Positions 8,081 through 47,484 of a stretch of 64,000 nucleotides of DNA are shown in pieces. Numbering within the stretch: the stretch's first letter is position 1; every line of letters begins with the position of its first letter. The notes beneath the pieces were generated by a model, which searched no databases, was not told the origin of the DNA, and was given only the letters and a program-made list of their open reading frames with translations. This DNA comes from a virus: positions 124,001 through 188,000 of IMG/VR virus record IMGVR_UViG_3300046787_000508; one strand, 5' to 3'. Made by a program: the position numbers and the translations under genes.

Positions 8081-9247
8081 TTATTTTATTTTACTCATCA
8101 AATCCTTCATTCTCTTGAATTGTGGGTTTTCGTAAGCTTTCGCTTCAGATAGAACCTCAGTTGAAGATGTTGTTGGAGTTGAAATTAACTTTTCTACTAC
8201 TGACTCAGTCATTGGTTTTTTAGTGTCTAATTCAGCTTTAATAGAAGAGTAAAGATTTTTTGATTCTGTAATTGTGGAAATTGTATCAAATCTCTTTAAA
8301 ATGTTCAATTTCTCTTGTTTTGTTGTTGAATGTTCAGTGAACAATCTTGTAGCGTACGCTAAGTTAGCGTTGAAAACTGCAACTTCATTAAGTTTGTCTT
8401 TGAAAAGAAGTAAAGCTTTTTTGTATTCAGAATTTTGTTTCTTCAACTTTTCAACTTCTTCATTCATTTCGTGACGACCAGCTTTGAATTTTTTACCTTG
8501 TGTGGCAGGCTTTCTCGCATCGTTTGCAAATGTTCTTGCCGCTTCAGTCGCTTCAACTTCTTCAGTTTCAGATTCCTCTTCTTCAGAAACTTCCAATTCA
8601 GGAGCTTCAAAATCTTCACCCTCTGCAACTTCTTGGTCTAACGCGATTTCTTCTTCGTCAAGTGTGATTTCGTAGACAGTTTCCTCATCTTCGTTAATAC
8701 CGTCCATTGAAAACTCTTCTTCATCTTCATCTTCCATAGAAAAATCAGTTTCTTCTTCGTCCTCAACCTCTTGGTCTAACTTAATGATGTACTCATCTGA
8801 TTCATCTGAGAATGAAATAGTATCGCCATCTTTTTTAACTACGATACCATCTTCAGGTTTCATCGCTTTGAACACTTTCAAAACTTCTTCGTCAGATGCA
8901 CTTGTCATATCAAGTACGTCTTCCTCGTCGTCTGCAGGTTCGTCTGCCATTTCTTCTTCAGAATCTTCGTCGTCTAATGATGGTTCACCTTCTTCATCTT
9001 CTGAATCAGTGTCATCTGCGGTTTCGTCGCTTATCGAAGTTTCTTCATCACCAGGTTCATCACCGGTTACATCTTGTGCTTCTTCATCAGGAACATTTAA
9101 TTCCTCGTCTTCTGCTTGTTCTTTAAGCAAATCATTTAGTTCTTGCTTCATTACTGAAGAAAGTATACCTTTTGCATTTTGCTTTACGGCTTCTTCAAGT
9201 GTATTAACTTGAAGTAACGCTTGTTCTAAAATGGATTTTTGACTCAT
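8081..9247 (-). CDS. Prohead core/scaffold protein (gp22-like position), very acidic
   Basis: 388 residues. Residues ~45-240 are extremely Asp/Glu-rich and end near ATEAARTFAND; the C-terminal part (~260-388) is helical and probably coiled-coil (NEEVEKLKKQNSEYKKALLL). Acidic, helical scaffolds are typical of the T4-type prohead core and are degraded by the prohead protease. It lies between the capsid and protease genes, the usual position of gp22. The identity rests on composition and position. A Ser-rich frame on the opposite strand is a shadow. Confidence 0.75.
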   Translation of the reverse strand: MSQKSILEQALLQVNTLEEAVKQNAKGILSSVMKQELNDLLKEQAEDEELNVPDEEAQDVTGDEPGDEETSISDETADDTDSEDEEGEPSLDDEDSEEEMADEPADDEEDVLDMTSASDEEVLKVFKAMKPEDGIVVKKDGDTISFSDESDEYIIKLDQEVEDEEETDFSMEDEDEEEFSMDGINEDEETVYEITLDEEEIALDQEVAEGEDFEAPELEVSEEEESETEEVEATEAARTFANDARKPATQGKKFKAGRHEMNEEVEKLKKQNSEYKKALLLFKDKLNEVAVFNANLAYATRLFTEHSTTKQEKLNILKRFDTISTITESKNLYSSIKAELDTKKPMTESVVEKLISTPTTSSTEVLSEAKAYENPQFKRMKDLMSKIK

Positions 9248-32636: not shown

Positions 32637-32706
32637 GGGCCTGATGTCAACGGCAGACCACCTGATTTGCAATCAGAGTGTTTGGGTTCGATTCCCACAG
32701 TGTCCA
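32637..32706 (+). tRNA. tRNA-Ala (TGC)
   Basis: Anticodon arm CTGA-TTTGCAA-TCAG gives TGC; T arm with TTCGATT. The acceptor stem is weak (several mismatches). A frame-shifted reading would give Cys (GCA), but the Thr tRNA at 39824 has the same arm layout and supports TGC. Confidence 0.65.
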
Positions 32707-32712
32707 CAAATT

Positions 32713-32784
32713 GGAATATAGCTCAGTTGGTTAGAGCGTCATCCTGATACGGTGAATGTCGATGGTTCGAGTCCATCTATTCCA
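32713..32784 (+). tRNA. tRNA-Ile (GAT)
   Basis: Complete cloverleaf; anticodon loop CTGATAC; T loop TTCGAGT; CCA not encoded. Confidence 0.9.
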
Positions 32785-32792
32785 ACAACAAT

Positions 32793-32865
32793 GGTGATGT
32801 AGCTCAGATGGTAGAGCGCTACCCTGAAGAGGTAGGCGTCGGCGGTTCGAGTCCGTCCATCACCA
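32793..32865 (+). tRNA. tRNA-Phe (GAA)
   Basis: Complete cloverleaf; anticodon arm CTACC-CTGAAGA-GGTAG. Confidence 0.93.
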
Positions 32866-32869
32866 CAAT

Positions 32870-32943
32870 GACCTCGTAGCTCAGTTGGTTAGAGCACCTC
32901 ACTTTTAATGAGGGAGTCAATGGTTCGAGTCCATTCGGGGTCA
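32870..32943 (+). tRNA. tRNA-Lys (TTT)
   Basis: Complete cloverleaf; anticodon loop CTTTTAA; acceptor GACCTCG/CGGGGTC. Confidence 0.93.
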
Positions 32944-32949
32944 CAATAT

Positions 32950-33021
32950 GCTGCGGTAGTGAAGAGGTTAACACGTATCACTTTCTATGATAAGGCCGGG
33001 GTTCGATTCCCCGTCGCAGTA
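32950..33021 (+). tRNA. tRNA-Glu (TTC)
   Basis: Anticodon arm TATCA-CTTTCTA-TGATA; T arm CCGGGG-type stem with TTCGATT. A second Glu (TTC) gene is at 36351. Confidence 0.88.
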
Positions 33022-33027
33022 CAAAAT

Positions 33028-33096
33028 ACAAATTAGGCTAAGGTAGCCAAATGGTCTCCAAAACCATAGGAGAAAGTTCGATTCTTTCAATTTGTG
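33028..33096 (+). tRNA. tRNA-Trp (CCA)
   Basis: Acceptor ACAAATT/AATTTGT perfect; anticodon arm ATGGT-CTCCAAA-ACCAT. Confidence 0.9.
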
Positions 33097-33152
33097 CAAA
33101 ATATAAATTATGAAAAAGAAATTTGATATGCATTAGGTTAAATTCCTAATAT

Positions 33153-33374
33153 ATGAAACCGTTCAAAAACAAAGTAAGTCAAACGACAACTCACAACAAA
33201 GAGTATAAAATAGTAACAAACGATAAATTCGACCCATATTGGGATGAAGGATATAATTTTTATCCGAGATATCGTAGAGGGTATAAGAACCCAAATAAAT
33301 GTATAATGAGTTTTCAAATTAGAATGTATCGAACTTGGAAACATAATAGAAAAACACAATGGAGAATAATGTAG
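33153..33374 (+). CDS. Hypothetical basic protein between tRNA blocks
   Basis: 73 residues, rich in Tyr/Arg/Asn (FDPYWDEGYNFYPRYRRGYK). Overlaps the next gene by 16 bases. A preceding 9-codon frame (33110-33136, MKKKFDMH then TAG) is in another frame and may be a leader. Function unknown. Confidence 0.55.
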   Translation: MKPFKNKVSQTTTHNKEYKIVTNDKFDPYWDEGYNFYPRYRRGYKNPNKCIMSFQIRMYRTWKHNRKTQWRIM

Positions 33375-33781
33375 AGGGATTTAAGTTAAAGGCCGAAGCT
33401 CAACTTATCCAAATCAGAGAGGAAAGAAAAAAGAGGGTAAAGGAGTATTGGGAAAATCTCCCCAAGATTGTTACTCCAAACGATGTCCCTGAATTACCAA
33501 GAGTAGATATTCAGGAATGGAAAGATTTCTACGTCCCAAAATTAATTGAGGCGGGAGCAATTGGTAAGGACGATTTGATTGAAGGTCAAATTTACATTGG
33601 TGAACATAGAAGAGCGAATGTTGCTAAATGGAACGGAAATGAATTCATTTACAATAGAGAGAAATTTGGAAACGTTTATGAAGATAAATGTAACCACTTT
33701 GAAGATGATGATGGGTTCGCTTTATTTGTTCCAATTAGATTTGGTACTGAGGAAGAATATAAGCAAAATTGTTTACAATAA
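33359..33781 (+). CDS. Hypothetical protein between tRNA blocks
   Basis: 140 residues, acidic. IEGQIYIGEHRRANVAKWNG-type strand pattern in the middle and a highly charged helical N-terminus. No recognised motif. It probably overlaps and couples with the gene before it. Confidence 0.65.
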   Translation: MENNVEGFKLKAEAQLIQIREERKKRVKEYWENLPKIVTPNDVPELPRVDIQEWKDFYVPKLIEAGAIGKDDLIEGQIYIGEHRRANVAKWNGNEFIYNREKFGNVYEDKCNHFEDDDGFALFVPIRFGTEEEYKQNCLQ

Positions 33782-33790
33782 ACAATAAAG

Positions 33791-33862
33791 GGTCTCTTGG
33801 TGTAACGGATAACACGGAACACTACGAATGTTTTGTTAAAGGTTCGAATCCTTTAGAGACCT
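33791..33862 (+). tRNA. tRNA-Arg (ACG)
   Basis: Acceptor GGTCTCT/AGAGACC perfect; anticodon loop CTACGAA. Confidence 0.9.
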
Positions 33863-33869
33863 CAAATAA

Positions 33870-33941
33870 GTCAGGTTGACCGAGTTGGTAAGGTGAAGGT
33901 CTGCAAAACCTTTTACGTTGGTTCGAATCCAACACTTGACT
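33870..33941 (+). tRNA. tRNA-Cys (GCA)
   Basis: Anticodon arm AAGGT-CTGCAAA-ACCTT; acceptor GTCAGGT/ACTTGAC with one wobble. Confidence 0.92.
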
Positions 33942-33950
33942 CTAATATAT

Positions 33951-34024
33951 GGTGATTGTAGCTGAAATGGTAAAGCACCTGATTGTGGTTCAGGCGATTG
34001 TGGGTTCGATTCCCACCTTTCACA
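33951..34024 (+). tRNA. tRNA-His (GTG)
   Basis: Anticodon arm CCTGA-TTGTGGT-TCAGG; the extra 5' G expected for His is available. Confidence 0.85.
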
Positions 34025-34031
34025 CAAAAAT

Positions 34032-34112
34032 TGCGGGATGTCAGAAGATGGTATCTGGGGAGTCTCATAAGCTCTTGCGTAAGCCTCGTGGGTTCGAGTC
34101 CCACTCCCGCAA
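34032..34112 (+). tRNA. tRNA with CAT anticodon and long variable arm
   Basis: Acceptor TGCGGGA/TCCCGCA is perfect and the T arm normal. The anticodon loop CTCATAA gives CAT, but the variable region (TTGCGTAAGCC) is long with a CTT/AAG mini-stem, like class II tRNAs (Leu, Ser). The amino acid is therefore uncertain: Met, Ile (modified C) or an altered Leu/Ser tRNA. Confidence 0.7.
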
Positions 34113-34150
34113 CCATTTACAATGATATTTATATTCGGTAAATTATTACT

Positions 34151-34969
34151 ATGGAGTATAAATGTCAATATTGTAATGAAATGTTTGTTTTTGAAAAAAA
34201 ACAACAAGCGGGAGCTCACGTAACTAACTGTTCTATGAATCCCAAAAAAAAATTAATGACCGAGAAAAGGTTATTAAGTAAGGACCAAGTAAAAATAGAT
34301 AGAGTATTAAATTGTGAAAGATGTAATCAGGAATATACAATTAATATAACCAACCATCTATTCTCAATTGGTGATTATAAAAAACATTGTTCAAGAAAAT
34401 GTGCAAACAGTAGAACACAAAAAGAAGAAACAAAAAATAAAATATCGGAATCGGTTAAAATGTGGTTTGAAAAACCTGAAGTTAAAATAAAATTATTAAA
34501 AGATAAATCAAAATATAGAAGAAATAGAAAATGTCCATCTTGTAATGATGATTTTTTAACATTAAAATCGTCAAAACAAAAATATTGTTCATTGAAATGT
34601 GCAGGTTCCGCCGGAGGTAAAAACTCTAAACAGGGGAAAAGGAGTTTAAATGAAATTATGTTTTTTGAATTATGTAGTGAACATTTTGAAGGTGTAATGT
34701 CAAACGAAAACGCGTTTAATGGTTGGGACGCTGATGTTATTCTACCAAATGAAAAAATTGCAGTTTTATGGAATGGAATTTGGCACTATAAAAAAATAAT
34801 GAAAAAACATTCATTAACCCAAGTTCAAAATAGGGATATGATTAAAATAAAGGAAATAAAAAAATTAGGGTTTAAACCATATATAATAAAAGATATGGGT
34901 TCACATAATCCAGAGTTTGTGAATGAACAATTTATTATTTTTAAAAAATATTTAGAAAATATTTTGTAA
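34151..34969 (+). CDS. Zinc-finger homing-endonuclease-like protein (Vsr/EDxHD type)
   Basis: 272 residues. Three Cys-rich zinc-finger parts (CQYCNEMF...; CERCNQEY...HCSRKC; CPSCNDDF...YCSLKC, to ~157) precede a Vsr-like nuclease core: GKRSLNEIMFFELC, WDADVILPNEKIAVLWNGIW and HYKKI...QNRDMIKIKEIKKLGF. This family includes free-standing homing endonucleases. Its place inside the tRNA block suggests a selfish insertion. A TATTTATA box is just upstream. Confidence 0.75.
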   Translation: MEYKCQYCNEMFVFEKKQQAGAHVTNCSMNPKKKLMTEKRLLSKDQVKIDRVLNCERCNQEYTINITNHLFSIGDYKKHCSRKCANSRTQKEETKNKISESVKMWFEKPEVKIKLLKDKSKYRRNRKCPSCNDDFLTLKSSKQKYCSLKCAGSAGGKNSKQGKRSLNEIMFFELCSEHFEGVMSNENAFNGWDADVILPNEKIAVLWNGIWHYKKIMKKHSLTQVQNRDMIKIKEIKKLGFKPYIIKDMGSHNPEFVNEQFIIFKKYLENIL

Positions 34970-34993
34970 ATTAAAAAATAAATATTACATTTG
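34964..34993 (+). promoter_or_regulatory. Bacteroidota-type promoter for the initiator tRNA block
   Basis: TTG at 34964, 19-nt spacer, TACATTTG at 34986-34993, 31 bases before the initiator tRNA. Confidence 0.75.
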
Positions 34994-35024
34994 TACAAGA
35001 ATTAAATGTTCATTGAAAATATAT

Positions 35025-35096
35025 CGCAGGGTAGAGCAGTGGTAGCTCGGGAGGCTCATAACCTCTAGGTCGTCAGTTCGAATCTGGCCCCTGCAA
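35025..35096 (+). tRNA. Initiator tRNA-fMet (CAT)
   Basis: The 5' C cannot pair with the 3' A (C1-A72 mismatch), the hallmark of bacterial initiator tRNA; the body closely follows the initiator pattern (AGAGCAGTGGTAGCTCG, CTCATAA loop, CCCCTGCAA end). The anticodon stem GGAGG/CCTCT has two rather than three consecutive G-C pairs at the loop. Confidence 0.88.
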
Positions 35097-35098
35097 CA

Positions 35099-35144
35099 AA
35101 ACATAAGATTAATTACCTTATGTATGGAAGGTTCGAAACTTCCG
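35099..35144 (+). ncRNA. Two hairpins, the second with a T-loop-like sequence
   Basis: ACATAAG/CTTATGT (7 bp perfect) followed by GGAAG-GTTCGAAA-CTTCC, which imitates a tRNA T arm without a tRNA around it. Confidence 0.45.
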
Positions 35145-35145
35145 A

Positions 35146-35259
35146 TTGATTATGGTGTAAAGGTGCACGGCAGAACGGAGTAGGAATACGAAAAGCATTG
35201 AGCTTTCGTCGGTTCCGAAAGGGGAAACAGGATTATGGTTCGAATCCATTTTAGTCAAC
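35146..35259 (+). ncRNA. Oversized tRNA-like RNA (Gln-like)
   Basis: About 114 nt. Acceptor TTGATTA/TAGTCAA, Gln-type D region (ATGGTGTAAAGGT) and T arm ATGG-TTCGAAT-CCAT are intact, but the middle ~65 nt does not form a standard anticodon arm; it holds a long hairpin around CGAAAAGCATTGAGCTTTCG whose loop contains TTG. Either an interrupted or degenerate tRNA-Gln or a tRNA mimic. Confidence 0.55.
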
Positions 35260-35261
35260 TA

Positions 35262-35387
35262 TTGTAATTGACATAACGTCCTTAGCGGGAGAGCTTAGTA
35301 TATTACGGATAATCCTTCGGTAATTTACGATATGGTAACGTAGAAACAAGAGTAAGAGGATTTGAGTTCTACCTATGTTAGTTACAA
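35262..35387 (+). ncRNA. Structured spacer RNA closed by a 14-bp stem
   Basis: TTGTAATTGACATA (35262-35275) pairs with TATGTTAGTTACAA (35374-35387) with only two G-U pairs. Inside are further hairpins (GTAGAAAC / GTTCTAC). It fills exactly the space between the tRNA-like RNA and tRNA-Asp and has no convincing reading frame. Confidence 0.5.
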
Positions 35388-35392
35388 TTTTT

Positions 35393-35465
35393 GGGATTGA
35401 GGTCAAACGGTTAAGATGTCGCCCTGTCACGGCGCACGGAGCGGGTTCAACTCCCGTCAGTCCCG
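35393..35465 (+). tRNA. tRNA-Asp (GTC)
   Basis: Anticodon arm with loop CTGTCAC; acceptor GGGATTG/CAGTCCC. Confidence 0.9.
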
Positions 35466-35673
35466 CAAATGAGTAAGAGATACTCAATGATTTGGCATCG
35501 TTCGAAATAATGATGTAGTTGTTTCCTTCCACGATTTTATAGAGGGGGTCTCGGAATATGGTCGTAACAAAACTACCGAGTATGTTTGACGTTTTAAGCG
35601 GTAAGACGCGATGGGTTTTTCAATACGAAAAACTGTGAATATCTACCTCGAAATAATCTCATCGGGGACAATT
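35466..35673 (+). ncRNA. Structured spacer between tRNA-Asp and tRNA-Ser
   Basis: Hairpin CATCGTT/AATGATG near the start, then TTGTTTCC (35519) pairing with GGGGACAA (35664), enclosing CTCGG/CCGAG and GTTTTTC/GAAAAAC hairpins. The closing stem ends 2 nt before tRNA-Ser. No gene is visible. Confidence 0.45.
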
Positions 35674-35759
35674 GGAAGGATGGCAGAGTTGGTCGATTGT
35701 ACCTGACTTGAAATCAGGCGTACTGCAAGGTACCGTGGGTTCGAATCCTACTCCTTCCG
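35674..35759 (+). tRNA. tRNA-Ser (TGA)
   Basis: Class II tRNA; anticodon arm CCTGA-CTTGAAA-TCAGG and long variable arm GTAC..GTAC. Confidence 0.92.
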
Positions 35760-36033
35760 CAATTCGACGACATTTAGGGTGATTTAGTATCTAGATTACT
35801 CTTTGTAACGATTACGGAAGTACACATTTATTTGTGTTAAACGTTAAGTTCGACAGGTAGAAACTAAGTGGTTCGGAATTTGACTGAAACAAGGTGACTT
35901 GGTCTTTGAAGTATTCAAACGATTTATCGTTGTAGGTACTGAATAACAAGAAGATAAACTAAGAACATCATCGTATGAAGTTTACCTAGAGAAATTTATA
36001 AAACGATGACTGCTCGGAAAGACGGGCTCATTT
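35760..36033 (+). ncRNA. Structured spacer without a gene
   Basis: 274 nt with several inverted repeats: ACACA/TGTGT, AACGAT/ATCGTT, and CATCGT (35969) with ACGATG (36003). No reading frame of note. Similar in size and style to the other inter-tRNA spacers. Confidence 0.4.
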
Positions 36034-36145
36034 AATTAGGTGGCGGAATTGGTAAACGTAGAGATGTTGAAGTTTAGGTATCACTATGATTAAGTTCAGA
36101 AACTTGACCTAATGCTCTAAACAGGTTCGAATCCTGTCCTGATTA
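36034..36145 (+). ncRNA. Oversized tRNA-like RNA (Leu-like)
   Basis: 112 nt. Acceptor AATTAGG/CCTGATT, Leu-type D region (TGGCGGAATTGGTAAACG) and T arm ACAGG-TTCGAAT-CCTGT are intact. The middle holds TAGAG/CTCTA and AAGTT-CAGA-AACTT pairings instead of a normal anticodon and variable arm, so about 25 nt are extra. Confidence 0.55.
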
Positions 36146-36350
36146 CAGGTCGTCTTTTTATATTGCTCCCGTTTGTGAGTTAACTTTATAGACGTAAAAC
36201 TTAAAGTAATGAAAATCATTCCCTTCTGGAGTTGACGGTAAAACTATCCAGTCCTGTTCCTTACCGAAGGAGTTTCCGGACGTTAATATGAAACTCAAAC
36301 GACAGTGAAAAGTAGGGACTTATAAGTTTTACCTGAACTTGTCCCGAATT
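36146..36350 (+). ncRNA. Structured spacer before tRNA-Glu
   Basis: GTAAAACTTA (36194) pairs perfectly with TAAGTTTTAC (36323); internal GGTAA/TTACC and CGTTT../..AGACG stems. No gene is visible. Confidence 0.45.
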
Positions 36351-36422
36351 GGCCCGTTCGACTATCGGTTAGGTCGTCAGGTTTTCATCCTGGAAAGAGG
36401 GGTTCGACTCCCCTACGGGCTA
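36351..36422 (+). tRNA. tRNA-Glu (TTC), second copy
   Basis: Anticodon arm CAGG-TTTTCAT-CCTG; acceptor GGCCCGT/ACGGGCT. Confidence 0.9.
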
Positions 36423-36436
36423 CTAAATTTAATGAA

Positions 36437-36628
36437 ATGAAAAAGTTAATTTTATTATTGGTTGTGATGTTTAGTATGAGTGGTTGTTATACCACATATA
36501 GAACGCCACAAAGACACAATGGACTTAGACCTTTATGGTATAATCCAAGAACTCATCAAGGACCGTTTTATAATCATCCAAGACCAAGAAACATGAGACC
36601 ACATTTCAATCCAAGAAATCGTTGGTAA
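36437..36628 (+). CDS. Small lipoprotein rich in Pro/Arg/His
   Basis: 63 residues: lipoprotein signal MKKLILLLVVMFSMSGC and a mature part of Pro, Arg, Asn, His and aromatics (YNHPRPRNMRPHFNPRNRW). Function unknown. Confidence 0.6.
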   Translation: MKKLILLLVVMFSMSGCYTTYRTPQRHNGLRPLWYNPRTHQGPFYNHPRPRNMRPHFNPRNRW

Positions 36629-36656
36629 CATTTGACTTTTTAATATTTTATTAGTA

Positions 36657-36663
36657 TATTTAT
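36657..36663 (+). promoter_or_regulatory. TATTTAT box before the Pth2-like gene
   Basis: TATTTATATTATT leads into the ATG at 36670, which supports that ATG as the true start and so places the TAG at codon 5 inside the gene. Confidence 0.5.
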
Positions 36664-36669
36664 ATTATT

Positions 36670-36999
36670 ATGAAACAACATTAGACACATAGACTTATAA
36701 CCGTAACGAGAAAAGATATTTCTCCGGGTTATCAAATTGCACAATCGGGGCATGCAATTGCACAATTCTTTTTAGACCATCCCGATTTATCTAAAAAATG
36801 GAACAACAACTATCTTATTTCGTTGTCCATAGATTCCGAACAAAAATTACATAAACTTTTTACCGACTTAATTGAGTGTGGAATATCCGTATCCGTGTTT
36901 AACGAACCAGATATTGATAATCAACTAACGTCACTGTGCTTCCTCGAAACGGGAGATACAAAAAAATACACACATAAACTTAAATTATCTTTAAATTAA
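36670..36999 (+). CDS. Pth2-like peptidyl-tRNA hydrolase with in-frame TAG at codon 5
   Basis: Reading from ATG 36670 to TAA 36997-36999 gives 109 codons if the TAG at 36682-36684 is decoded. The product matches the Pth2 fold: RKDISPGYQIAQSGHAIAQF is the nucleotide/tRNA binding start of that family, followed by LISLSIDSEQKLHKLFTDL and GISVSVFNEPD. Pth2 frees tRNA from aborted peptidyl-tRNA. No ATG, GTG or TTG offers a start after the TAG before the core. A CTA-anticodon tRNA lies at 37576, so amber decoding is plausible; a mutation or assembly error is the alternative. Confidence 0.7.
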
Positions 37000-37108
37000 G
37001 AAACCATGAAATAGATACGACCACCGAACTAAACTTAATAAAGTAAAAAATGCTCGATAAAGGCATCAACTTTATCATTAAACAATAACTTTATTAAATT
37101 TAAACAAA

Positions 37109-37447
37109 ATGAAAAAATACACAAATAACCCAACACAAATGATTAAATGTACATTCTCTAACTCAGTTCATAAAATATTAGAACCTAATATCGATATTAA
37201 AAATCGTGAAAGATGGAGAAAAGAAAATCGTGACAAATACAATTTCACTGATGAACAAAAAATAGAAATGTTCGATAAGATAATGAAAATACATAAAGAA
37301 ACATCTAATGAATTAACATCTTATCAATTTGATAGGAGAGACAAAAAAAGGTTACACGCTGACCGTGTCGCTCGAGGTTATAAATTTAAAACAAAAACCA
37401 AAAAGGAAGAATATGAAAAAAATATTCAGAAAGATTTGGTATTATAA
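37109..37447 (+). CDS. Hypothetical basic helical protein
   Basis: 112 residues, strongly basic and helical (NRERWRKENRDKYNFTDEQK). No motif recognised. It lies between the Pth2-like gene and the suppressor tRNA and could bind RNA, on charge alone. Confidence 0.6.
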   Translation: MKKYTNNPTQMIKCTFSNSVHKILEPNIDIKNRERWRKENRDKYNFTDEQKIEMFDKIMKIHKETSNELTSYQFDRRDKKRLHADRVARGYKFKTKTKKEEYEKNIQKDLVL

Positions 37448-37466
37448 AAAATAAACAATACATTTG
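37436..37466 (+). promoter_or_regulatory. Bacteroidota-type promoter for the suppressor tRNA
   Basis: TTG at 37436, 20-nt spacer, TACATTTG at 37459-37466. Confidence 0.7.
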
Positions 37467-37470
37467 TATT

Positions 37471-37573
37471 ATAATTTACAACCAAAGAGACATTGACTTA
37501 GTAACCCAGTGGAGGCACACATAAACTGTATTAGTGAAAAGTTGAGGTGATAGACCACCATGTTGTAAATTAT
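37471..37573 (+). ncRNA. Structured leader closed by a perfect 12-bp stem
   Basis: ATAATTTACAAC (37471-37482) pairs perfectly with GTTGTAAATTAT (37562-37573). It begins at about the expected transcription start of the promoter and ends 2 nt before the suppressor tRNA. Confidence 0.55.
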
Positions 37574-37575
37574 TT

Positions 37576-37647
37576 GTCCTGTTAGTGTAGTGGTAGCACG
37601 AAGGTCTCTAAAACCTTTAAGGGTCGGTTCGAGTCCGACACGGGGCA
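37576..37647 (+). tRNA. Amber-suppressor tRNA (CTA)
   Basis: Acceptor GTCCTGT/ACGGGGC, D arm AGTGTAGTGGTAGCAC, anticodon arm AAGGT-CTCTAAA-ACCTT giving CTA, T arm GTCGG-TTCGAGT-CCGAC. It reads UAG. The arm GGT-CTCTAAA-ACC differs by one base from the Trp pattern (CTCCAAA), so descent from tRNA-Trp is possible; Gln is the other candidate. The amino acid cannot be fixed here. Confidence 0.9.
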
Positions 37648-37672
37648 CAAAAATAAAAAAAATAAAAAATAT

Positions 37673-37703
37673 TTGTTTACTATTGATATTTTTTGTAAAT
37701 TTG
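37673..37703 (+). promoter_or_regulatory. Bacteroidota-type promoter for the mini-gene at 37721
   Basis: TTG at 37673, 20-nt spacer, TAAATTTG at 37696-37703. Confidence 0.7.
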
Positions 37704-37720
37704 CATATACTTATTAAACG

Positions 37721-37828
37721 ATGAAGAATATAAATAACATATTGACGAGTACGAGACCCCTTAACAATGGTAATGGGTATGGTGTGCAACCGTTAAGTTA
37801 CTTATGTTCGGATATTATTGAGATGTAA
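37721..37828 (+). CDS. Mini-gene of 35 residues
   Basis: 35 residues (MKNINNILTSTRPLNNGNGY and then GVQPLSYLCSDIIEM) with its own promoter and a strong terminator at 37848. The arrangement repeats that at 32418-32632. It could be a small effector or a leader peptide; no family is recognised. Confidence 0.45.
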   Translation: MKNINNILTSTRPLNNGNGYGVQPLSYLCSDIIEM

Positions 37829-37847
37829 ATAAATTTTACAATTATAA

Positions 37848-37886
37848 ATCAACCCGAACAAATTAAAAAAATGTTCGGGTTTTTTG
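37848..37886 (+). terminator. Terminator after the mini-gene
   Basis: AACCCGAACA / TGTTCGGGTT hairpin followed by TTTTTTG. Confidence 0.85.
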
Positions 37887-37914
37887 TTTTAATTAAATTT
37901 TATTATTACATTTG
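37884..37914 (+). promoter_or_regulatory. Bacteroidota-type promoter for the Leu-Asn tRNA block
   Basis: TTG at 37884, 20-nt spacer, TACATTTG at 37907-37914. Confidence 0.7.
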
Positions 37915-37947
37915 TAACGTAGTTCATTGACATTCTGAGAAAGTAAC

Positions 37948-38032
37948 GCCCGGGTGGTGTAATGGTAGCCACGAGGGACTTAAAATCCCTTGGACAGAAA
38001 CGTTCGTGCCGGTTCGAGTCCGGCCCCGGGTA
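37948..38032 (+). tRNA. tRNA-Leu (TAA)
   Basis: Class II; anticodon arm GGGA-CTTAAAA-TCCC; acceptor GCCCGGG/CCCGGGT. Confidence 0.9.
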
Positions 38033-38080
38033 CGAAGCTTAGTTCACACTATACTCGCGAAGAGGAGGAAGTGTATTTTT

Positions 38081-38154
38081 GGTTCCATAGCTCAATTGGA
38101 TAGAGCAACACACTTCTAATGTGTAGGTTTCAGGTTCGACTCCTGATGGAATCA
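38081..38154 (+). tRNA. tRNA-Arg (TCT)
   Basis: Anticodon arm ACACA-CTTCTAA-TGTGT; acceptor GGTTCCA/TGGAATC. Confidence 0.93.
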
Positions 38155-38212
38155 CACCGGTGGTAGTTTTGAGGTTGACGAATTCTACATAAAAAAAATA
38201 ATTCATCCACTA

Positions 38213-38285
38213 CTAGGTGTGGGAAAGTTGGTAATCCGCGTGGTTTGGGACCACGAGACCGTAGGTTCGAGCCCTACCACTTAGA
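38213..38285 (+). tRNA. tRNA-Pro (TGG)
   Basis: Anticodon arm CGTGG-TTTGGGA-CCACG; acceptor CTAGGTG/CACTTAG. A hairpin (GGTGGTAGT...ACTAC) precedes it directly. Confidence 0.9.
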
Positions 38286-38362
38286 CGAGATGGTGATAAC
38301 CAATCAGCAGCCAAAATGTATACAGAAATGCTGGAGGTGACAAACGGGGAGAGACCCGTACA

Positions 38363-38444
38363 TACCCGAGTGGTGGAATGGTATACACAGCGGTCTTAGA
38401 AACCGTGTCGAAAGGCGTGTCGGTTCGAGTCCGACCTTGGGTAC
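38363..38444 (+). tRNA. tRNA-Leu (TAG)
   Basis: Class II; anticodon arm GCGGT-CTTAGAA-ACCGT; acceptor TACCCGA/TTGGGTA. Confidence 0.9.
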
Positions 38445-38451
38445 GAAAATT

Positions 38452-38523
38452 GGCCTTGTAGCTCAGTGGTAGAGCAGTTGACTGTTAATCAACTGGTCGT
38501 TGGTTCGAATCCAACCGGGGCCT
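38452..38523 (+). tRNA. tRNA-Asn (GTT)
   Basis: Anticodon arm GTTGA-CTGTTAA-TCAAC; acceptor GGCCTTG/CGGGGCC. An interrupted second Asn gene is at 43314. Confidence 0.93.
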
Positions 38524-38589
38524 CAAAAAGTTTAACCATATAAGGTTGAATAAGATGACAGACGAAAGTTATCTCTTGAGGGTAAAATG

Positions 38590-38655
38590 AAAAGATTGGT
38601 AGAGTGGTACTACGGGGTGACGGCCCAAACGCAGGTTCGATTCCTGTATCGAAGT
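38590..38655 (+). ncRNA. Partial tRNA-like fragment
   Basis: A D-arm-like GTAG-AGTGGTA-CTAC and a good T arm GCAGG-TTCGATT-CCTGT flank a poor anticodon arm. The following TATCGAAGT finds its complement ACTTTGATA only downstream, just before tRNA-Tyr. A degenerate tRNA is the simplest reading. Confidence 0.35.
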
Positions 38656-38717
38656 AATTTGAGAGTAAAGGTAAAAGGTATTAATAGCGGTCTAAAAACT
38701 GGGTTAAACTTTGATAT

Positions 38718-38799
38718 GGGAGCATCGCATAGCGGCAATTGCAGAAGACTGTAAATCTTCCCTCTTTCGAGTTCGTAGGTTCGAGTCCTACTGCTCCCA
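38718..38799 (+). tRNA. tRNA-Tyr (GTA)
   Basis: Class II-type long variable arm; anticodon arm GAAGA-CTGTAAA-TCTTC; acceptor GGGAGCA/TGCTCCC. Confidence 0.93.
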
Positions 38800-38813
38800 C
38801 AAAAAAACAAATT

Positions 38814-39467
38814 ATGGCAACATTAGAAACACAGTACAAGGATTTTTTGGTTAAAAACCCAAGTTCAACGTTTACATTTGAAGAATGGAAAAACGACCAC
38901 GGGGTTAAGATTGCAAATGCAGTTGAACGTTCTTCCTCACTTAAGAAAATTATTGATGAGATTAGAACACCCGAATACAAGGAAAGGAGATTAAAAGAAA
39001 AAAAAGAAAGTAAAGAAAGATTAACCGCCGAGTATCAGTTTGGATATTATGTTGGTGAAGAAATTGTGACAAGGCATTTACCAACGATTACAACAGATAT
39101 GATAAAGTCTCGTAATCAAATTAAAGTTTCGGATGAAGACACTGAAGAAAACAAACGTATACATGACCTATGGTGGGAGAGTGGAAAATATGGTTCCAAT
39201 CCTGACGATGTGGTTAATAAAGAAACTTGGAAATTATATCGACAACATATGGTTATGTTGGAAAAGAAGTATCTCCCAAATCCTTTAAAATGTAATATTG
39301 ATTTATTAAATATTCGTGACGAGAAAGATTTTAAAGATGGGTTAATCCATTCGTTGTGGAATTGTGATATGTGTACTTACAGTTTAAAACCTGAAGACAT
39401 TAAGATATACGATGATGAAGATATGTGGTTTACCATCATTGAATTTATCCTAAGAGACGAAGAATAA
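38814..39467 (+). CDS. Hypothetical protein between tRNA genes
   Basis: 217 residues, highly charged and helical, from the ATG at 38814 (an earlier ATG lies inside tRNA-Tyr). DLWWESGKYGSNPDD and LIHSLWNCDMCTYSLKPEDI are notable aromatic/Cys stretches, but no family is recognised. It starts 15 bases after the tRNA and ends 7 before the next one. Confidence 0.7.
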   Translation: MATLETQYKDFLVKNPSSTFTFEEWKNDHGVKIANAVERSSSLKKIIDEIRTPEYKERRLKEKKESKERLTAEYQFGYYVGEEIVTRHLPTITTDMIKSRNQIKVSDEDTEENKRIHDLWWESGKYGSNPDDVVNKETWKLYRQHMVMLEKKYLPNPLKCNIDLLNIRDEKDFKDGLIHSLWNCDMCTYSLKPEDIKIYDDEDMWFTIIEFILRDEE

Positions 39468-39473
39468 TAGTTT

Positions 39474-39547
39474 GGACTTGTAGCTCAGTTGGTTAGAGCA
39501 CCGCACTCATAATGCGTAGGTCCCTGGTTCGAGCCCAGGCTGGTCCA
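39474..39547 (+). tRNA. tRNA-Met or tRNA-Ile2 (CAT)
   Basis: Standard class I tRNA; anticodon arm CGCA-CTCATAA-TGCG. Elongator Met or lysidine-type Ile cannot be separated by eye. Confidence 0.85.
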
Positions 39548-39554
39548 CAAAATT

Positions 39555-39631
39555 TGGAAAGTTAGCTCAGTTGGTTCAGAGCACCTCGTTTACACCGAGG
39601 GGGTCGTAGGTTCGAATCCTACACTTTCTAC
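39555..39631 (+). tRNA. tRNA-Val (TAC)
   Basis: Anticodon arm CTCG-TTTACAC-CGAG; acceptor TGGAAAG/CTTTCTA. Confidence 0.9.
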
Positions 39632-39632
39632 A

Positions 39633-39818
39633 ATGTATCAAATGTGCAGTGAAAGTTGATGTAGGCATACATCGGTGAGGTGGGTTCGAATCCCAAGTAA
39701 CAATACCCAATTTGGTGGGGGCCGAGTAACTGATAACACATTATAGCCGATTTTGGGTTGTGCACCTCGTCCGAGAAACCCTAATAGTTCCTAATAGACC
39801 GGTATGGAACTGATACAT
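39633..39818 (+). ncRNA. Structured spacer closed by a perfect 8-bp stem
   Basis: ATGTATCA (39633-39640) pairs with TGATACAT (39811-39818). It begins 2 nt after tRNA-Val and ends 5 nt before tRNA-Thr and contains GATGT/ACATC and a T-arm-like TGGG-TTCGAAT-CCCA hairpin. No gene is visible. Confidence 0.5.
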
Positions 39819-39823
39819 AATTT

Positions 39824-39896
39824 GCCTCCATAGCTCAGTTGGTAGAGCAGCTGATTTGTAATCAGCAGGTCGTTGGTTCGAGCCCGACTGGAGGCT
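39824..39896 (+). tRNA. tRNA-Thr (TGT)
   Basis: Anticodon arm CTGA-TTTGTAA-TCAG; acceptor GCCTCCA/TGGAGGC. Confidence 0.93.
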
Positions 39897-39900
39897 CATA

Positions 39901-39974
39901 AGCAGATGTCGTATAATGGTCATTACTTCAGACTTCCAATCTGAAGATGAGAGTTCGATTCTCTCCATCTGCTC
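39901..39974 (+). tRNA. tRNA-Gly (TCC)
   Basis: Anticodon arm TCAGA-CTTCCAA-TCTGA; acceptor AGCAGAT/ATCTGCT. Confidence 0.92.
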
Positions 39975-40069
39975 TGTCGGTACCCAAAGGGTGAAGGACG
40001 TGGTATGGGACTTGTTCCCTCAAACTCAATACCGTAAGTTGAGCGGCCAATCTACGGGATTGGCTTTAC
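39975..40069 (+). ncRNA. Structured spacer between tRNA-Gly and tRNA-Gln
   Basis: 95 nt with hairpins GGTACCC/GGGT, GGTAT/ATACC and GCCAATC-tacgg-GATTGGC. No reading frame. Confidence 0.4.
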
Positions 40070-40141
40070 TGTTCCATGGTGTAACGGTTAACACTACCGG
40101 TTTTGAGCCGGTCATTTCAGGTTCGAATCCTGATGGGACAA
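40070..40141 (+). tRNA. tRNA-Gln (TTG)
   Basis: Anticodon arm ACCGG-TTTTGAG-CCGGT; acceptor TGTTCCA/TGGGACA. Confidence 0.92.
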
Positions 40142-40145
40142 CAAA

Positions 40146-40231
40146 GGAAGGTTACCCAAGTTGGTGAAGGGGCCTGTTTGCTAAACAGGTAGGGTGTAAC
40201 AGCCGCGAGAGTTCGAGCCTCTCACTTTCCG
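40146..40231 (+). tRNA. tRNA-Ser (GCT)
   Basis: Class II; anticodon arm CCTGT-TTGCTAA-ACAGG; acceptor GGAAGGT/ACTTTCC. Confidence 0.92.
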
Positions 40232-40233
40232 CA

Positions 40234-40300
40234 AATCGATAGTGCTGTACGCGACGGAGACACAAGACAGAAGTGAAGGAACTGTCCCTATTGATTTTTT
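40234..40300 (+). ncRNA. Structured RNA closed by a 9-bp stem, followed by a T tract
   Basis: AATCGATAG (40234) pairs with CTATTGATT (40288-40296), followed by TTTTTT; inner hairpin GACAG/CTGTC. It may end the tRNA transcript. Confidence 0.45.
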
Positions 40301-40304
40301 TTAT

Positions 40305-40441
40305 TGTAATGTGTTGGAATTAGATATGAATAATATCTTTGGCAGACAAGCCCTCCTGTCTCGGGGGTGATGAAAAAGAAATAGGTTAATGGTAACATAA
40401 ACTGAATCTCATCGTGGATGGTTCGAGTCCTCCCATTACAG
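40305..40441 (+). ncRNA. Oversized tRNA-like RNA with perfect acceptor stem
   Basis: 137 nt. Acceptor TGTAATG/CATTACA is perfect, a T-loop sequence GGTTCGAGTCC and a D-like GGTTAATGGTAAC are present, but the T stem has mismatches and the middle ~90 nt holds extra hairpins. No standard anticodon arm was found. Confidence 0.4.
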
Positions 40442-40476
40442 CATTATAAAAAAAACAAAAAATTTTTACAAAAGGC

Positions 40477-40555: not shown

Positions 40556-42628
40556 ATGGAATTGACTAAGAACATCGTCGCTCTACAAAAAGGTCTTGTA
40601 GTACCATCTAACGACGGGATGGATAACAGAATTGCAGTTTCAACTGTACAAACTCACTTAATGGAGTGGGGTTATATGTTAGACCAAGACGCTTTCACAG
40701 AATTATCAAAATCAGACTTATCGGTTATCGTTAAATTCAATGACGAAGTAATTTCATATTTGAAAAACGTAATGGGAGGTAAAAGAGATTACCAACCACT
40801 TTACAAAAACTTCCCTGAAGAAGTTATGTCATTATCCGATTACGAATTATATTTCAACGCCATTGTTCATTATTGGTCAAATGGTAATTGGGAACCATCA
40901 ACTGTTACATACGAGAAACCAATTAAATTTGAGAAAATCAAATATACGTTGATTAAGTTTGCAACACCTGAAAGATTCTCACAAATCTTTACTGATTTAG
41001 TTTCAATTAACACATCATTATCTCCACAAGATATGTCAATTATTCAATGGTTTGTGAATAGCGGTGAGAAACTTGTTTTCCCAGATGTTATTCCATTCAA
41101 AGAGAATCTTTGTACATTAGCGTCAATGGGAATTGAAGGTTTACCTGTTAAAACGACAACGGATGTATTAAGAATTGCGGTATCATTATCTGGTGGGGAT
41201 ATTTCATTACCTAAATTACCATTTAAAGAAGTTAGAGCAAGTCGTTGGACAACTCAAAAAGTTGATAACCCGGCAAGAGAATTGTTTAAATTTAAAAAGT
41301 TCACTCGTAAAGAGAGAAAATACCTTTTAGGTTTATTAGAACAGACAAACTGTGATGCAAGAGAAATGGTTCTTAGAGACCAAAGATGGATTCGTTTAGG
41401 TGAAATTTTACATCCGGGTGAATATAAAACAAAATTCCCTAAATCCGCTGAGGTGTTTAACAAAATCAGAAATGAGAAAGTTAAATCTTGGTATGGAATA
41501 TTGAACGATTCATTCAAGAAAGGATTGGAAGACGGTTTGAAAGTTTTATCACAAAGACCGGGTGAATTCTCACGTAGAATTGATTGGTTAATTAGAACTA
41601 ACCCAAACCAATTGGATTTAATCATGTCTTATTTCAATGAGTCCGTTAAAGGAACATCGAATAAAGTATTATTTGAAGTGTATGGTCATTTCGAAGGTAG
41701 ATTAGAACCAAAGAATAATCGTTCGGTTATGATTAAAGGAGCAAGAAAACGTACCGAATTACCATCATTACCTGCATTGTCAAACGATACAGTAGAAATG
41801 ATTCATTCAAAACTTTTTGAAACTCTTAAAGATAAATTCTCAACATTAGAACCGTTAGGTGATTGTTGGATTGATGAGGAATTGAAAAAGATTCCATTAC
41901 CGACAAATATGAGAAGTATGAACTTTTCAACTAAACCAGTTTTACGTGGTCAAAGAACACCGTTGGATAATCCTGACGCTAAAGTAATTAGACCTTTCGT
42001 TCATTGGAATGATAAAACGGGTAATGAAGATTTGGATTTAAGTGTTACCTTTGTTGGGGACTCGAATAATGTACTTTCTTTCAGTAATATGAAGGTTGGT
42101 AATTCGGTTCACTCAGGTGATGTTAGACATAGACAAGGACCTTGTGCTGAGTATATCGATATTGATATTGCCGACGCTAAATCACGTGGATTCAAATACG
42201 CTATTATTGATGTGAGAAACTATAATGGTCGTTCATTGAAATCTGTGGAATCTACATTTGGTATTATGGAAAGAGAATTTCCAGAATCAAATAAGACTTG
42301 GTTACCTGAAACTATGGTCGGTGCACAATCATTGGAATCTGAATCATCTAATACGTTAATCGCGATTGTTGATTTATACACCAAAGAGTACATTATGTTG
42401 GATATAGATTCTGACGGTGAGGTTACCGCAAGAGGTGACGTTAAGAACACTTTGAAGATGATTGAGCAATATGCTAAACCACCAAAGGTAAGTGTATATG
42501 ATTTAGTTCTATTACACGTTGAAGGGAGAGGTAGACAAGTGACATTAGATTCTAATGTTAACACCTACTTCAAATTCGAAGACTTTATGACTTCGTATGA
42601 ACAAACAGGAAAATTAATGGGTGTGTAA
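40556..42628 (+). CDS. Large two-part protein with TerD-like C-terminal domain
   Basis: 690 residues. The N-terminal ~450 residues are helical; GLLEQTNCDAREMVLRDQRW, LGEILHPGEYKTKFPKSAEV and SQRPGEFSRRIDWLIRTN (~255-350) resemble a helical domain found beside tellurite/stress (Ter) genes. The C-terminal ~230 residues look TerD-like: GNEDLDLSVTFVGDSNNVLS, VHSGDVRHRQGPCAEYIDID and YAIIDVRNYNG, with Asp residues that in TerD bind calcium. It has its own host-type promoter and precedes the repeat array. The role in phage is unknown. Confidence 0.6.
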   Translation: MELTKNIVALQKGLVVPSNDGMDNRIAVSTVQTHLMEWGYMLDQDAFTELSKSDLSVIVKFNDEVISYLKNVMGGKRDYQPLYKNFPEEVMSLSDYELYFNAIVHYWSNGNWEPSTVTYEKPIKFEKIKYTLIKFATPERFSQIFTDLVSINTSLSPQDMSIIQWFVNSGEKLVFPDVIPFKENLCTLASMGIEGLPVKTTTDVLRIAVSLSGGDISLPKLPFKEVRASRWTTQKVDNPARELFKFKKFTRKERKYLLGLLEQTNCDAREMVLRDQRWIRLGEILHPGEYKTKFPKSAEVFNKIRNEKVKSWYGILNDSFKKGLEDGLKVLSQRPGEFSRRIDWLIRTNPNQLDLIMSYFNESVKGTSNKVLFEVYGHFEGRLEPKNNRSVMIKGARKRTELPSLPALSNDTVEMIHSKLFETLKDKFSTLEPLGDCWIDEELKKIPLPTNMRSMNFSTKPVLRGQRTPLDNPDAKVIRPFVHWNDKTGNEDLDLSVTFVGDSNNVLSFSNMKVGNSVHSGDVRHRQGPCAEYIDIDIADAKSRGFKYAIIDVRNYNGRSLKSVESTFGIMEREFPESNKTWLPETMVGAQSLESESSNTLIAIVDLYTKEYIMLDIDSDGEVTARGDVKNTLKMIEQYAKPPKVSVYDLVLLHVEGRGRQVTLDSNVNTYFKFEDFMTSYEQTGKLMGV

Positions 42629-42654
42629 TACCACCCATTATTAAAATATATTGT

Positions 42655-43393
42655 GGCTATGTGTTATGTTACTTCTAAACTTTTAATTGGCTAAAAACAT
42701 ACATACACTCTTTCCACTTTTTAAAAATTATTGCGGCTATGTGAGATTCCAAAAGGATAACCATTAACCACATTTACTTGAGACGGGATGTTTCCGTAAT
42801 GTGGTCTTAGATTAGGTGAAAGTACGGGAACAAAGGTCTTACTTCTAACATACAAATTAAGATAACACGTTAGACACACTTTTTCCGCAAAACTTATAAA
42901 CGGCTATACATATTCTTACTTCTATCCAAACTTTTACTTTGACAATAGATTTGTGATTTCCGTTTTTTATTACGTTCTTTGAAAAAATATTTGGCTATAG
43001 ATTGTGTTACTTCTATATGGTTAATCTTGGTTCGAATCCAAGTCATACCTGTAACAGGGTAAGATTTTTACACAACTAATCTCCAAATAAATTATATTTT
43101 AATGGCTATGTGGGCGTGAATTGGTATAATATTTACATATCAACCACGGACTGGTTACTTCTACATCATCTGCGGGGAACTCAGCTTCGCCGCAACCATA
43201 ACAATTAACCAGCACAGTTTCCATTAAAAACTTATATCGGCTATGAATCGAGTTACTTCTAAAAACTATCAATAATGAAAACTCACTCATCCAATTTCCG
43301 ATTAATTTAAAATGAGGGTGGTAGCTCAGTTGGTAGAGCACGTATTCACTGGTTTAATTACCGTTTATATGGCTATATTCACAGTTACTTCTA
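42655..43393 (+). repeat. Array of seven GGCTAT-N8-TTACTTCTA repeats
   Basis: GGCTAT occurs at 42655, 42735, 42902, 42993, 43104, 43239 and 43371, each followed by TTACTTCTA (42669, 42839, 42916, 43007, 43155, 43253, 43385). In five copies exactly 8 variable bases separate the two parts; in copies 2 and 5 the gap is 98 and 45 nt. Most copies are preceded by TTTCC or ACCG and an A/T-rich stretch. No protein-coding frame. The last copy lies inside a tRNA-Asn gene. Confidence 0.8.
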
Positions 43394-43441
43394 TTAGGCT
43401 GTTAACCTCGTGGTCGTGAGTTCGAATCTCACCCACCCTCC
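43314..43441 (+). tRNA. tRNA-Asn (GTT) interrupted by a 53-nt insertion
   Basis: Joining 43314-43342 to 43396-43441 gives a perfect tRNA: acceptor GAGGGTG/CACCCTC, D arm GCTCAGTTGGTAGAGC, anticodon arm CGAGG-CTGTTAA-CCTCG, T arm GTGAG-TTCGAAT-CTCAC. The insertion 43343-43395 splits the 5' side of the anticodon stem, starts and ends with TATT and contains one GGCTAT-N8-TTACTTCTA repeat. It is too short for a group I or II intron. Confidence 0.85.
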
Positions 43442-47072: not shown

Positions 47073-47479
47073 GGGGATGCTTTGGAATTGATTTCAAGTA
47101 TCGGGGATAAATGGCATGTAGTCAGACTTCATCTATGACTTAAATCTATGGTGGAAAACTTTTAGACGGCAACGTTTACAACAACATGGAGACTGCAGGT
47201 ATTCTTGCAACTTCAAACGTAGCAGTAGCCTAAGGCCAAACTACATCGGGTCGAATAACACATAACCTAGGAACAGAAGTTATCAAGGTGTAATACCACC
47301 AAAAGATGTATTAGGAGTCTCGTTCAGGGTGCTACTCCAACACAAGTGAATCCGACACAGTTATTGGTAACGATGTTAAAATAGGAACCAATTATTTGTC
47401 AGTTGAGAATTAACTGAATAAACATGTAGTCATTTATTGTTGAGCGGGAAAGACCGGAGTTCGAGTCTCCGCATCTCCA
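47073..47479 (+). ncRNA. ssrA: Transfer-messenger RNA (tmRNA)
   Basis: 407 nt. The ends form the tRNA-like domain: GGGGATG...CATCTCC with the Ala identity pair G3-U70, a D-loop-like start (CTTTGGAATTGATTTC) and a T arm GACCGGAGTTCGAGTCTCC. A tag frame runs 47168-47233 (resume codon GGC inferred): GNVYNNMETAGILATSNVAVA then TAA. The tag is 21 residues and ends VAVA, not the common ALAA. Predicted pseudoknot-rich region follows. It rescues stalled ribosomes with SmpB. Own promoter and terminator; CCA not fully encoded. Confidence 0.9.
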
Positions 47480-47484
47480 CTTAT

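Follow-up and report, generated by a model that had tools for sequence, protein, structure and literature searches.

The 64,000-nucleotide stretch of viral DNA analysed here (the window; positions 124,001 to 188,000 of IMG/VR record IMGVR_UViG_3300046787_000508) carries an intergenic array of repeats, flanked by genes for proteins of 690 and 148 amino acids, which an earlier note made from the letters alone had described as a repeat family of unknown nature. The array is one repeated 75-nucleotide module, and the repeats are a structured RNA family absent from Rfam. These RNAs are probably the partners of a Ro60-like protein encoded by the 690-residue gene, and thus an unnamed counterpart of the Y RNAs. 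The second fixed block of the repeat, TTACTTCTA, occurs exactly seven times in the window, always on the plus strand (42669-43393) and nowhere else, and GGCTAT sits 5' of each of the seven copies. Counting in the sequence agrees with the earlier note (42655-43393): the two blocks are exactly 8 nucleotides apart in five of the seven copies, with spacers of 98 nucleotides in copy 2 (42741-42838) and 45 nucleotides in copy 5 (43110-43154). With three mismatches allowed, about two matches would be expected by chance; the five exact 8-nucleotide-spaced copies were found, and no others.

The pattern search that the earlier note had proposed for related phages finds the array again in many other phage contigs. 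When IMG/VR was scanned for the exact repeat pattern, the result was many chance matches, to which most contigs with one bare copy belong, and about 18 contigs with at least two copies; most of the latter have this intergenic array, flanked by the same pair of genes. No match to the array was found by blastn among cultured phages. Compared phage and bacterial loci are labelled below with L-numbers (L011, L064 and so on), and copy n is the same as unit n.

When the units are aligned across phages, the eight bases taken by the earlier note as freely variable (X) pair with seven bases (Y) some 20-60 nucleotides downstream, with X4 bulged, to give helix P2, and helix P1 joins the bases on the outer side of GG to those that follow UUUCC. 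The unit consensus is P1 (NNNNGG) - CUAU - X - UUACUUCUA - P3 domain - YA - Y - NNUUU - P1' (CCNNNN). The 98- and 45-nucleotide "cargos" of copies 2 and 5 are extra domains within the 5' strand of P2, and RNAfold recovered P1 in each of units 1-6 folded singly. In 58 distinct units, 562 of 638 cells were paired versus 330 (standard deviation 12) when the 3' sides were swapped between units. This set had been picked with pairing in mind; a second set, picked by letters only (GGCTAY-N8-TTACTTCTA and the next TTTCC) and including some chance matches, gave 338 pairs out of 420 versus 216 (standard deviation 9), with a shuffle maximum of 249 in 2000. Among 33 phage units aligned with MAFFT, 90.9% of the cells were paired, and the covariation score was 0.766 versus 0.230 (standard deviation 0.022) for shuffled units and 0.10-0.17 with the helices slid. 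For 74 matches in other loci, whose alignment is fitted to the model, the score was 0.966 versus 0.194 shuffled.

The covariance analysis suggested in the earlier note thus reveals strong covariation in two helices, and it separates the three readings offered there. That of small structured RNAs is borne out by the covariation, and mini-introns do not account for the six of seven copies that stand alone. Fixed blocks repeated with variable spacers would also suit integron-like cassettes or recombination sites, but this DNA-level reading fails because paired positions change together as in RNA; the copies moreover stay at one locus across diverse phyla, and as a main explanation it is already refuted by the covariation and keeps virtually no credence. 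The resemblance of the variable bases of copies 4 and 7 to sequence just upstream, also pointed out earlier, is probably a coincidence, as conservation is lacking: copy 4 of L011, a near relative, reads AGCTTGTG and the upstream sequence AGATTTGTAG. Copy 1 as a splicing element, with the upstream gene continuing through the repeat, was dropped as a candidate once the RNA structure was clear.

In distant phages, the motif directly adjoins a homolog of the gene for the window's 690-residue protein. Homologs were fetched from 41 viral and 80 bacterial loci, and a covariance model built from phage array units only (R1) was run on the 80 bacterial and 17 viral loci. It matched less than 1 kb from the gene in 45 of the bacterial and 16 of the viral loci; nine further matches were more distant or on the opposite strand, and the long array of L180 accounts for five of these. 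A second model (R2), rebuilt from the R1 matches in those loci, matched 35 of the 36 leftover loci, the sole miss having its gene at the contig start. Taken together, R1 and R2 find the RNA close to the gene, with both on one strand, in 96 of the 97 loci, which come from phages and from bacteria of many phyla (Bacillota, Bacteroidota, Pseudomonadota, Planctomycetota, Acidobacteriota and others). Among 104 genomes of one bacterial family, the RNA is present in 28 and the gene in 29, with both in 28 and the RNA alone in none; in the lone gene-only genome the gene is a fragment. Whole-genome searches gave one to three copies per bacterial genome. In phage records outside the training of the models, the RNA lies beside the gene in five of six (XacN1, Weasels2, RpAliso, LpeD and a faecal phage); SCTP-2 has the protein and no motif within 2.5 kb of the match. 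On a Neomarinimicrobiota contig (L229, 4424-4874), at least four tandem copies stand ahead of a Ro60-like gene, and arrays are therefore not limited to phages.

Motif copies occur both 5' and 3' of the gene, depending on the locus. Some ribosomal proteins repress their own mRNA by binding, and the motif could likewise be a cis-acting leader through which the protein binds and represses its own message, the arrays being repeated operators. In most bacterial loci its one to three copies do share the strand of the gene and precede it, often at 20-200 nucleotides from the start. However, copies follow the stop codon in the window and in L164, L174, L200-L206, L208, L213, L228, L234 and others, and neither arrays of five to seven copies nor copies in or around tRNAs are expected of an operator, which makes a leader function unlikely.

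The gene and the array in the window are composed as follows (bit scores of the units from cmsearch with R1 and R2):

40556..42628, plus strand: gene of the Ro60-like protein (690 amino acids), just 5' of the array; HEAT-like helical region and C-terminal TerD fold in the predicted model.
42649..42721, plus strand: unit 1; X GTGTTATG, Y CATACAC; R1 74.9 bits, R2 59 bits; P1 and P2 given by RNAfold.
42731..42890, plus strand: unit 2; P1 TTGCGG/CCGCAA; 98-nucleotide domain between GTG and GTC, P2 partner GACACAC.
42896..42967, plus strand: unit 3; X ACATATTC, Y GATTTGT; P1 AAACGG/CCGTTT; R1 64.3 bits, R2 59 bits.
42974..42982, plus strand: inter-unit element GTTCTTTGA, between units also in L047, L122 and others.
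42987..43090, plus strand: unit 4; P3 composed of UGGUUA, a T-arm hairpin and a capped hairpin (tRNA-elbow-like); R2 46.7 bits.
43098..43228, plus strand: unit 5; 45-nucleotide domain in P2 (GTG..CTGG with CCAGCAC); P1 TTTTAATGG/CCATTAAAA; R2 15.4 bits.
43233..43305, plus strand: unit 6; X GAATCGAG, Y CTCATCC; P1 ATCGG/CCGAT; R1 71.7 bits, R2 57.9 bits.
43315..43440, plus strand: tRNA-Asn(GTT) with a 53-nucleotide insert in the 5' strand of the anticodon stem; Rfam tRNA, 45.3 bits.
43343..43395, plus strand: unit 7, circularly permuted, inside the tRNA-Asn; order Y, AATTACC, capped P1 (CCGT-TTAT-ATGG), GGCTAT, X, TTACTTCTATT.

Unit 2 is conserved in relatives, with TAGACACAC ahead of a TTTCC-like box, and lacks a strong covariance model score because its insert is too large. 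RNAfold gives P1, P2 and an extra hairpin for unit 5, which is conserved in L011 and L050. The design of unit 4 is common to L018, L024, L047 and L122; the lone T arm that the earlier note had seen after copy 4 is real, and GGTTCGAATCC or a similar sequence is kept in the same four loci. The inter-unit element resembles a boxA antitermination signal and may be one.

The tRNA around copy 7 had been overlooked in the earlier note, as had the X/Y pairing and the adjoining protein gene. Without the insert, tRNA-Asn(GTT) has a perfect anticodon stem (CGAGG/CCTCG) and a normal loop. The insert itself is the motif opened at P3, with P1 closed by a four-base loop; the P1 cap CCGT-TTAT-ATGG of the window is replaced elsewhere by CTGT-ACAT-ACGG, CTGT-AAAT-GCGG or CTGA-GTAT-TCGG, the stem sides covarying between relatives. 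Inserts of this type recur in tRNAs of L024, L028, L047, L075, L076, L122, L164, L180 and L223, and the phage tRNAs that carry them are provisionally read as Asn, Phe, Gln, Tyr and Ala. On a planctomycete contig, a tRNA provisionally read as Arg(TCT) with the insert is followed directly by a standard copy and then by the protein gene. In every tRNA-embedded case the insert is placed 5' of the anticodon, the exact boundary being ambiguous for those in the loop.

The opposite arrangement is seen in L064, a 208-kb phage contig, where the P3 of two standard units is a permuted tRNA in the order T arm, acceptor stem with a short closing loop, and D arm. The Rfam YrlA model matches these two P3 domains with E-values of 9e-4 and 3e-3; the matches span positions 23-85 of the 114 in the model, keep the correct parts in their correct order and stay below the gathering score (best 29.1 bits versus a cut-off of 69). 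Unit 4 of the window is a reduced form of this tRNA-like domain, with UGGUUA, a T arm and a capped hairpin.

Since copy 7 interrupts a tRNA, the mini-intron proposed in the earlier note is formally possible for this copy. Excision of 43343-43395 restores a loop of normal form along with the CGAGG/CCTCG stem, the tRNAs concerned (read as Asn, Phe, Gln, Tyr, Ala and Arg) have their insert on the 5' side of the anticodon, and the tRNA bodies keep their pairing, as would be expected if copy 7 and its relatives were a new mini-intron excised to give functional tRNA, with the free copies as derivatives or decoys of the splicing element. This explanation has to contend with an uninterrupted tRNA-Asn(GTT) in the same phage (38452-38524), with RtcB not found in the phage record, with no Rfam Intron_gpI match in the window (the copy 7 insert being only 53 nucleotides), with the location of most copies outside tRNAs, and with the tRNA permuted within the motif in L064, which splicing leaves unexplained; we find it improbable. 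A tRNA-RNA chimera fits copy 7 better than an intron does, because its insert is the motif in permuted form and the reverse arrangement, a tRNA enclosed by the motif, exists in L064.

The protein encoded next to the array has a partial match to the NCBIfam family RING_SCO0854 (NF041916; E-value 6e-69, 233 bits versus a family cut-off of 600). Pfam gave no domain in the window protein and no shared domain among 56 homologs, and searches of PDB sequences with the protein or its alignment found no relative. An AlphaFold model from the 56-sequence alignment reached a predicted local distance difference test (pLDDT) value of 91.6 and a predicted template modelling (pTM) score of 0.87, and structure comparison of the model identified a TerD fold in residues 473-635 (Z 14.2). 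Among solved proteins, alignments of about 300 residues (287-319) were obtained with Ro60 entries alone (human, Deinococcus and the Thermus phage phiLo), with Z-scores of 5.2-5.6 for this model and 8.0-10.3 (human and phiLo) for an earlier, less confident one. The modelled protein is thus Ro60-like in architecture and no demonstrated member of the TROVE family. Like Ro60/Rsr proteins (TROVE plus vWA), including phiLo Ro60 (9l5y), it has a predicted helical-repeat body followed by a C-terminal domain; unlike them, it has no detectable sequence homology to the family and a TerD fold at the C-terminus. It resembles TerD proteins and NF041916 in residues 473-635 and in the 233-bit match, but its score is far under the family cut-off, and no RNA partner for that family is described in the sources searched.

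The motif was matched by no family of Rfam 15 in the window or in the bacterial relatives. Across all scans, at gathering and permissive thresholds, Rfam returned tRNA, tmRNA, GOLLD, a group I intron and the sub-threshold YrlA of L064, the rest being at chance level. Our literature search, which left most subscription papers and preprints outside, found no published description of the motif, and an earlier one is possible. Theta ribozymes, which lie next to phage tRNAs (PMC10879173), were for that reason among the candidates considered. The compact core, the conserved unpaired bases and the two circular permutations are indeed typical of both aptamers and self-cleaving ribozymes, and tandem units of either kind might merely regulate or process the protein gene. 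No Rfam riboswitch or ribozyme was matched in the window, the array or the bacterial relatives, however, the conserved single strands are pyrimidine-rich, and the units are coupled to one protein family in any lineage and on either side of its gene; such a role seems very improbable. Giant phage RNAs of the GOLLD and ROOL type are similar in being large non-coding regions near phage tRNAs, whereas the window holds an array of a repeated 75-nucleotide module; neither family was matched, whether at gathering score (whole window) or at E-values up to 5 (array).

The closest known system is that of YrlA (RF02553) and Rsr/Ro60. Bacterial Y RNAs have been described in both design and operon neighbours (PMC8394870); in the YrlA-type design, the stem serves to hold the ring of Ro60, and the tRNA-like domain brings in a partner, for instance PNPase (PMC8394870; PMC8058203). 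The present family likewise has a stem plus a separate tRNA-like module and a gene for a Ro60-like protein beside it, and the L064 modules match the tRNA-like part of the YrlA model (T arm, capped acceptor and D arm). It differs from YrlA in that the array stem conserves GGCUAU, UUACUUCUA and UUUCC and gives no gathering-score match, in that the window family forms tandem arrays in which some units contain or sit in complete tRNAs, and in that the partner is not TROVE by sequence. Taking the features of Y RNAs in turn, the basal stem is present in the form of P1 and P2, which covary strongly and enclose conserved internal loops; the tRNA-like domain is found in two L064 units and partially in unit 4 of the window, many units having a plain hairpin; and the gene beside the RNA in 96 of 97 loci is Ro60-like by fold only. 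In locus layout, the array also resembles that of the Listeria phage CKA15, where an Rsr-like gene has as neighbours tRNAs and abundant non-coding RNAs, the latter amounting to a large part of the phage transcripts (PMC12282133); such loci can therefore be highly active. That the CKA15 RNAs are possible Y RNAs is a suggestion of its authors only (PMC12282133).

A Ro60-Y RNA design is proposed here because the loops are constant while the helices change freely, a single protein gene nearly always accompanies the RNA, which is present in one to seven copies, and some modules imitate or contain tRNAs. From this comparison, we consider it likely that the array of this huge phage represents several small RNAs (or one multi-module precursor) with a shared stem that would dock the neighbouring Ro60-like/TerD protein in the manner of Y RNAs. 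Support comes from the RNA structure, its covariation, the cross-phylum coupling to the protein gene and the tRNA-like modules. Several results weigh on the other side. At gathering score, no Rfam Y RNA family was matched by the window, by a set of 12 bacterial loci or by one of 16 loci from phages and bacteria, and a permissive scan of the window array units gave none either. TROVE (PF05731) is absent from the phage record and from the 56 homologs, hhalign against an alignment of eight TROVE proteins gave 0.4% and no sequence relation, the better protein model aligns to Ro60 with Z-scores of 5.2-5.6, a range that allows for chance likeness, and its C-terminal domain matches TerD structures best, where Ro60 has vWA. 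Among the RNAs, unit 4 is only weakly tRNA-like (Rfam tRNA E-value 0.63), and the weakest point of the structural evidence is the X:Y pairing of unit 7, which is incomplete in the window, with about four of the seven pairs, and improves in L075 and L122. Finally, L064 (IMGVR_UViG_3300031994_000006, 120-600) has five RNA copies and no detected protein homolog in the 208-kb contig; a partner may exist in more divergent form or be absent from the contig. R2 found no motif at canonical TROVE loci in flanks of about 100 nucleotides, which are too short to decide.

Under the Y-RNA-like reading, we infer binding of the RNAs by the protein, their processing and the purpose of the complex as follows. 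The docking site would be the P1 and P2 stem with its GGCUAU, UUACUUCUA and UUUCC strands, and the variable P3 parts would serve as effector modules, comprising plain hairpins, the mimic of a tRNA elbow in unit 4, the extra domains of units 2 and 5 and, in unit 7, a whole tRNA joined to the motif through its anticodon arm. As in YrlA, the stem would hold the Ro60-like protein, and the tRNA-like domain would tether a partner or mimic tRNA. In this way the phage would produce Ro-like particles of its own, equipped with several RNA effectors, from a locus beside its tRNA region, and during infection the ribonucleoprotein (RNP) might sequester, deliver or quality-control tRNAs and other structured RNAs. 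Going further, we would give roughly even chances to the idea that this is a second ancient Ro/Y-type RNP, built on a Ro-like protein that is fused to TerD and has no sequence relation to TROVE, with an RNA family of its own, spread over many bacterial phyla and huge phages, in which real tRNAs are hooked via the anticodon arm, so that intact tRNAs are handled (withdrawn, protected or delivered for decay or repair) beyond mimicry.

A cluster of about 25 phage tRNAs lies at 32637-40232 of the window; the anticodon of one of them, at 37576-37648, is CTA (amber suppressor-type). An open reading frame between tRNA genes (34151-34969) matches an HNH endonuclease profile (phrog_1271) and is a possible homing gene. 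Between the tRNA genes, T-arm-like GGTTCGA pieces and hairpins occur at 35100-36340, 38530-38710, 39640-39820 and 40230-40445; these stretches are mostly not called as tRNA by ARAGORN or Rfam, and from their sequence they may be further interrupted, permuted or tRNA-like RNAs. A phage tmRNA is located at 47073-47482 (Rfam, 81.3 bits) and is also found 3' of the array in L028, L047 and L073. In L164, a 310-kb phage relative, GOLLD lies about 1.5 kb downstream of the array (8281-8679, 315.7 bits), and the related phage contig L122 has a group I intron match on the minus strand (1689-1903, 68.7 bits).

With this analysis, a widespread and uncharacterised protein family of bacteria and phages is assigned a candidate RNA partner. 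The RNA is tied almost perfectly to one gene in many bacterial phyla, and the assignment is therefore testable in cultured bacteria. The results suggest that Ro/Y-type RNPs are far commoner in prokaryotes than TROVE searches reveal. The copies embedded in tRNAs, which exist in both permutations, offer a natural experiment on the origin of the likeness between Y RNAs and tRNA, and they bear on the large tRNA sets of huge phages.
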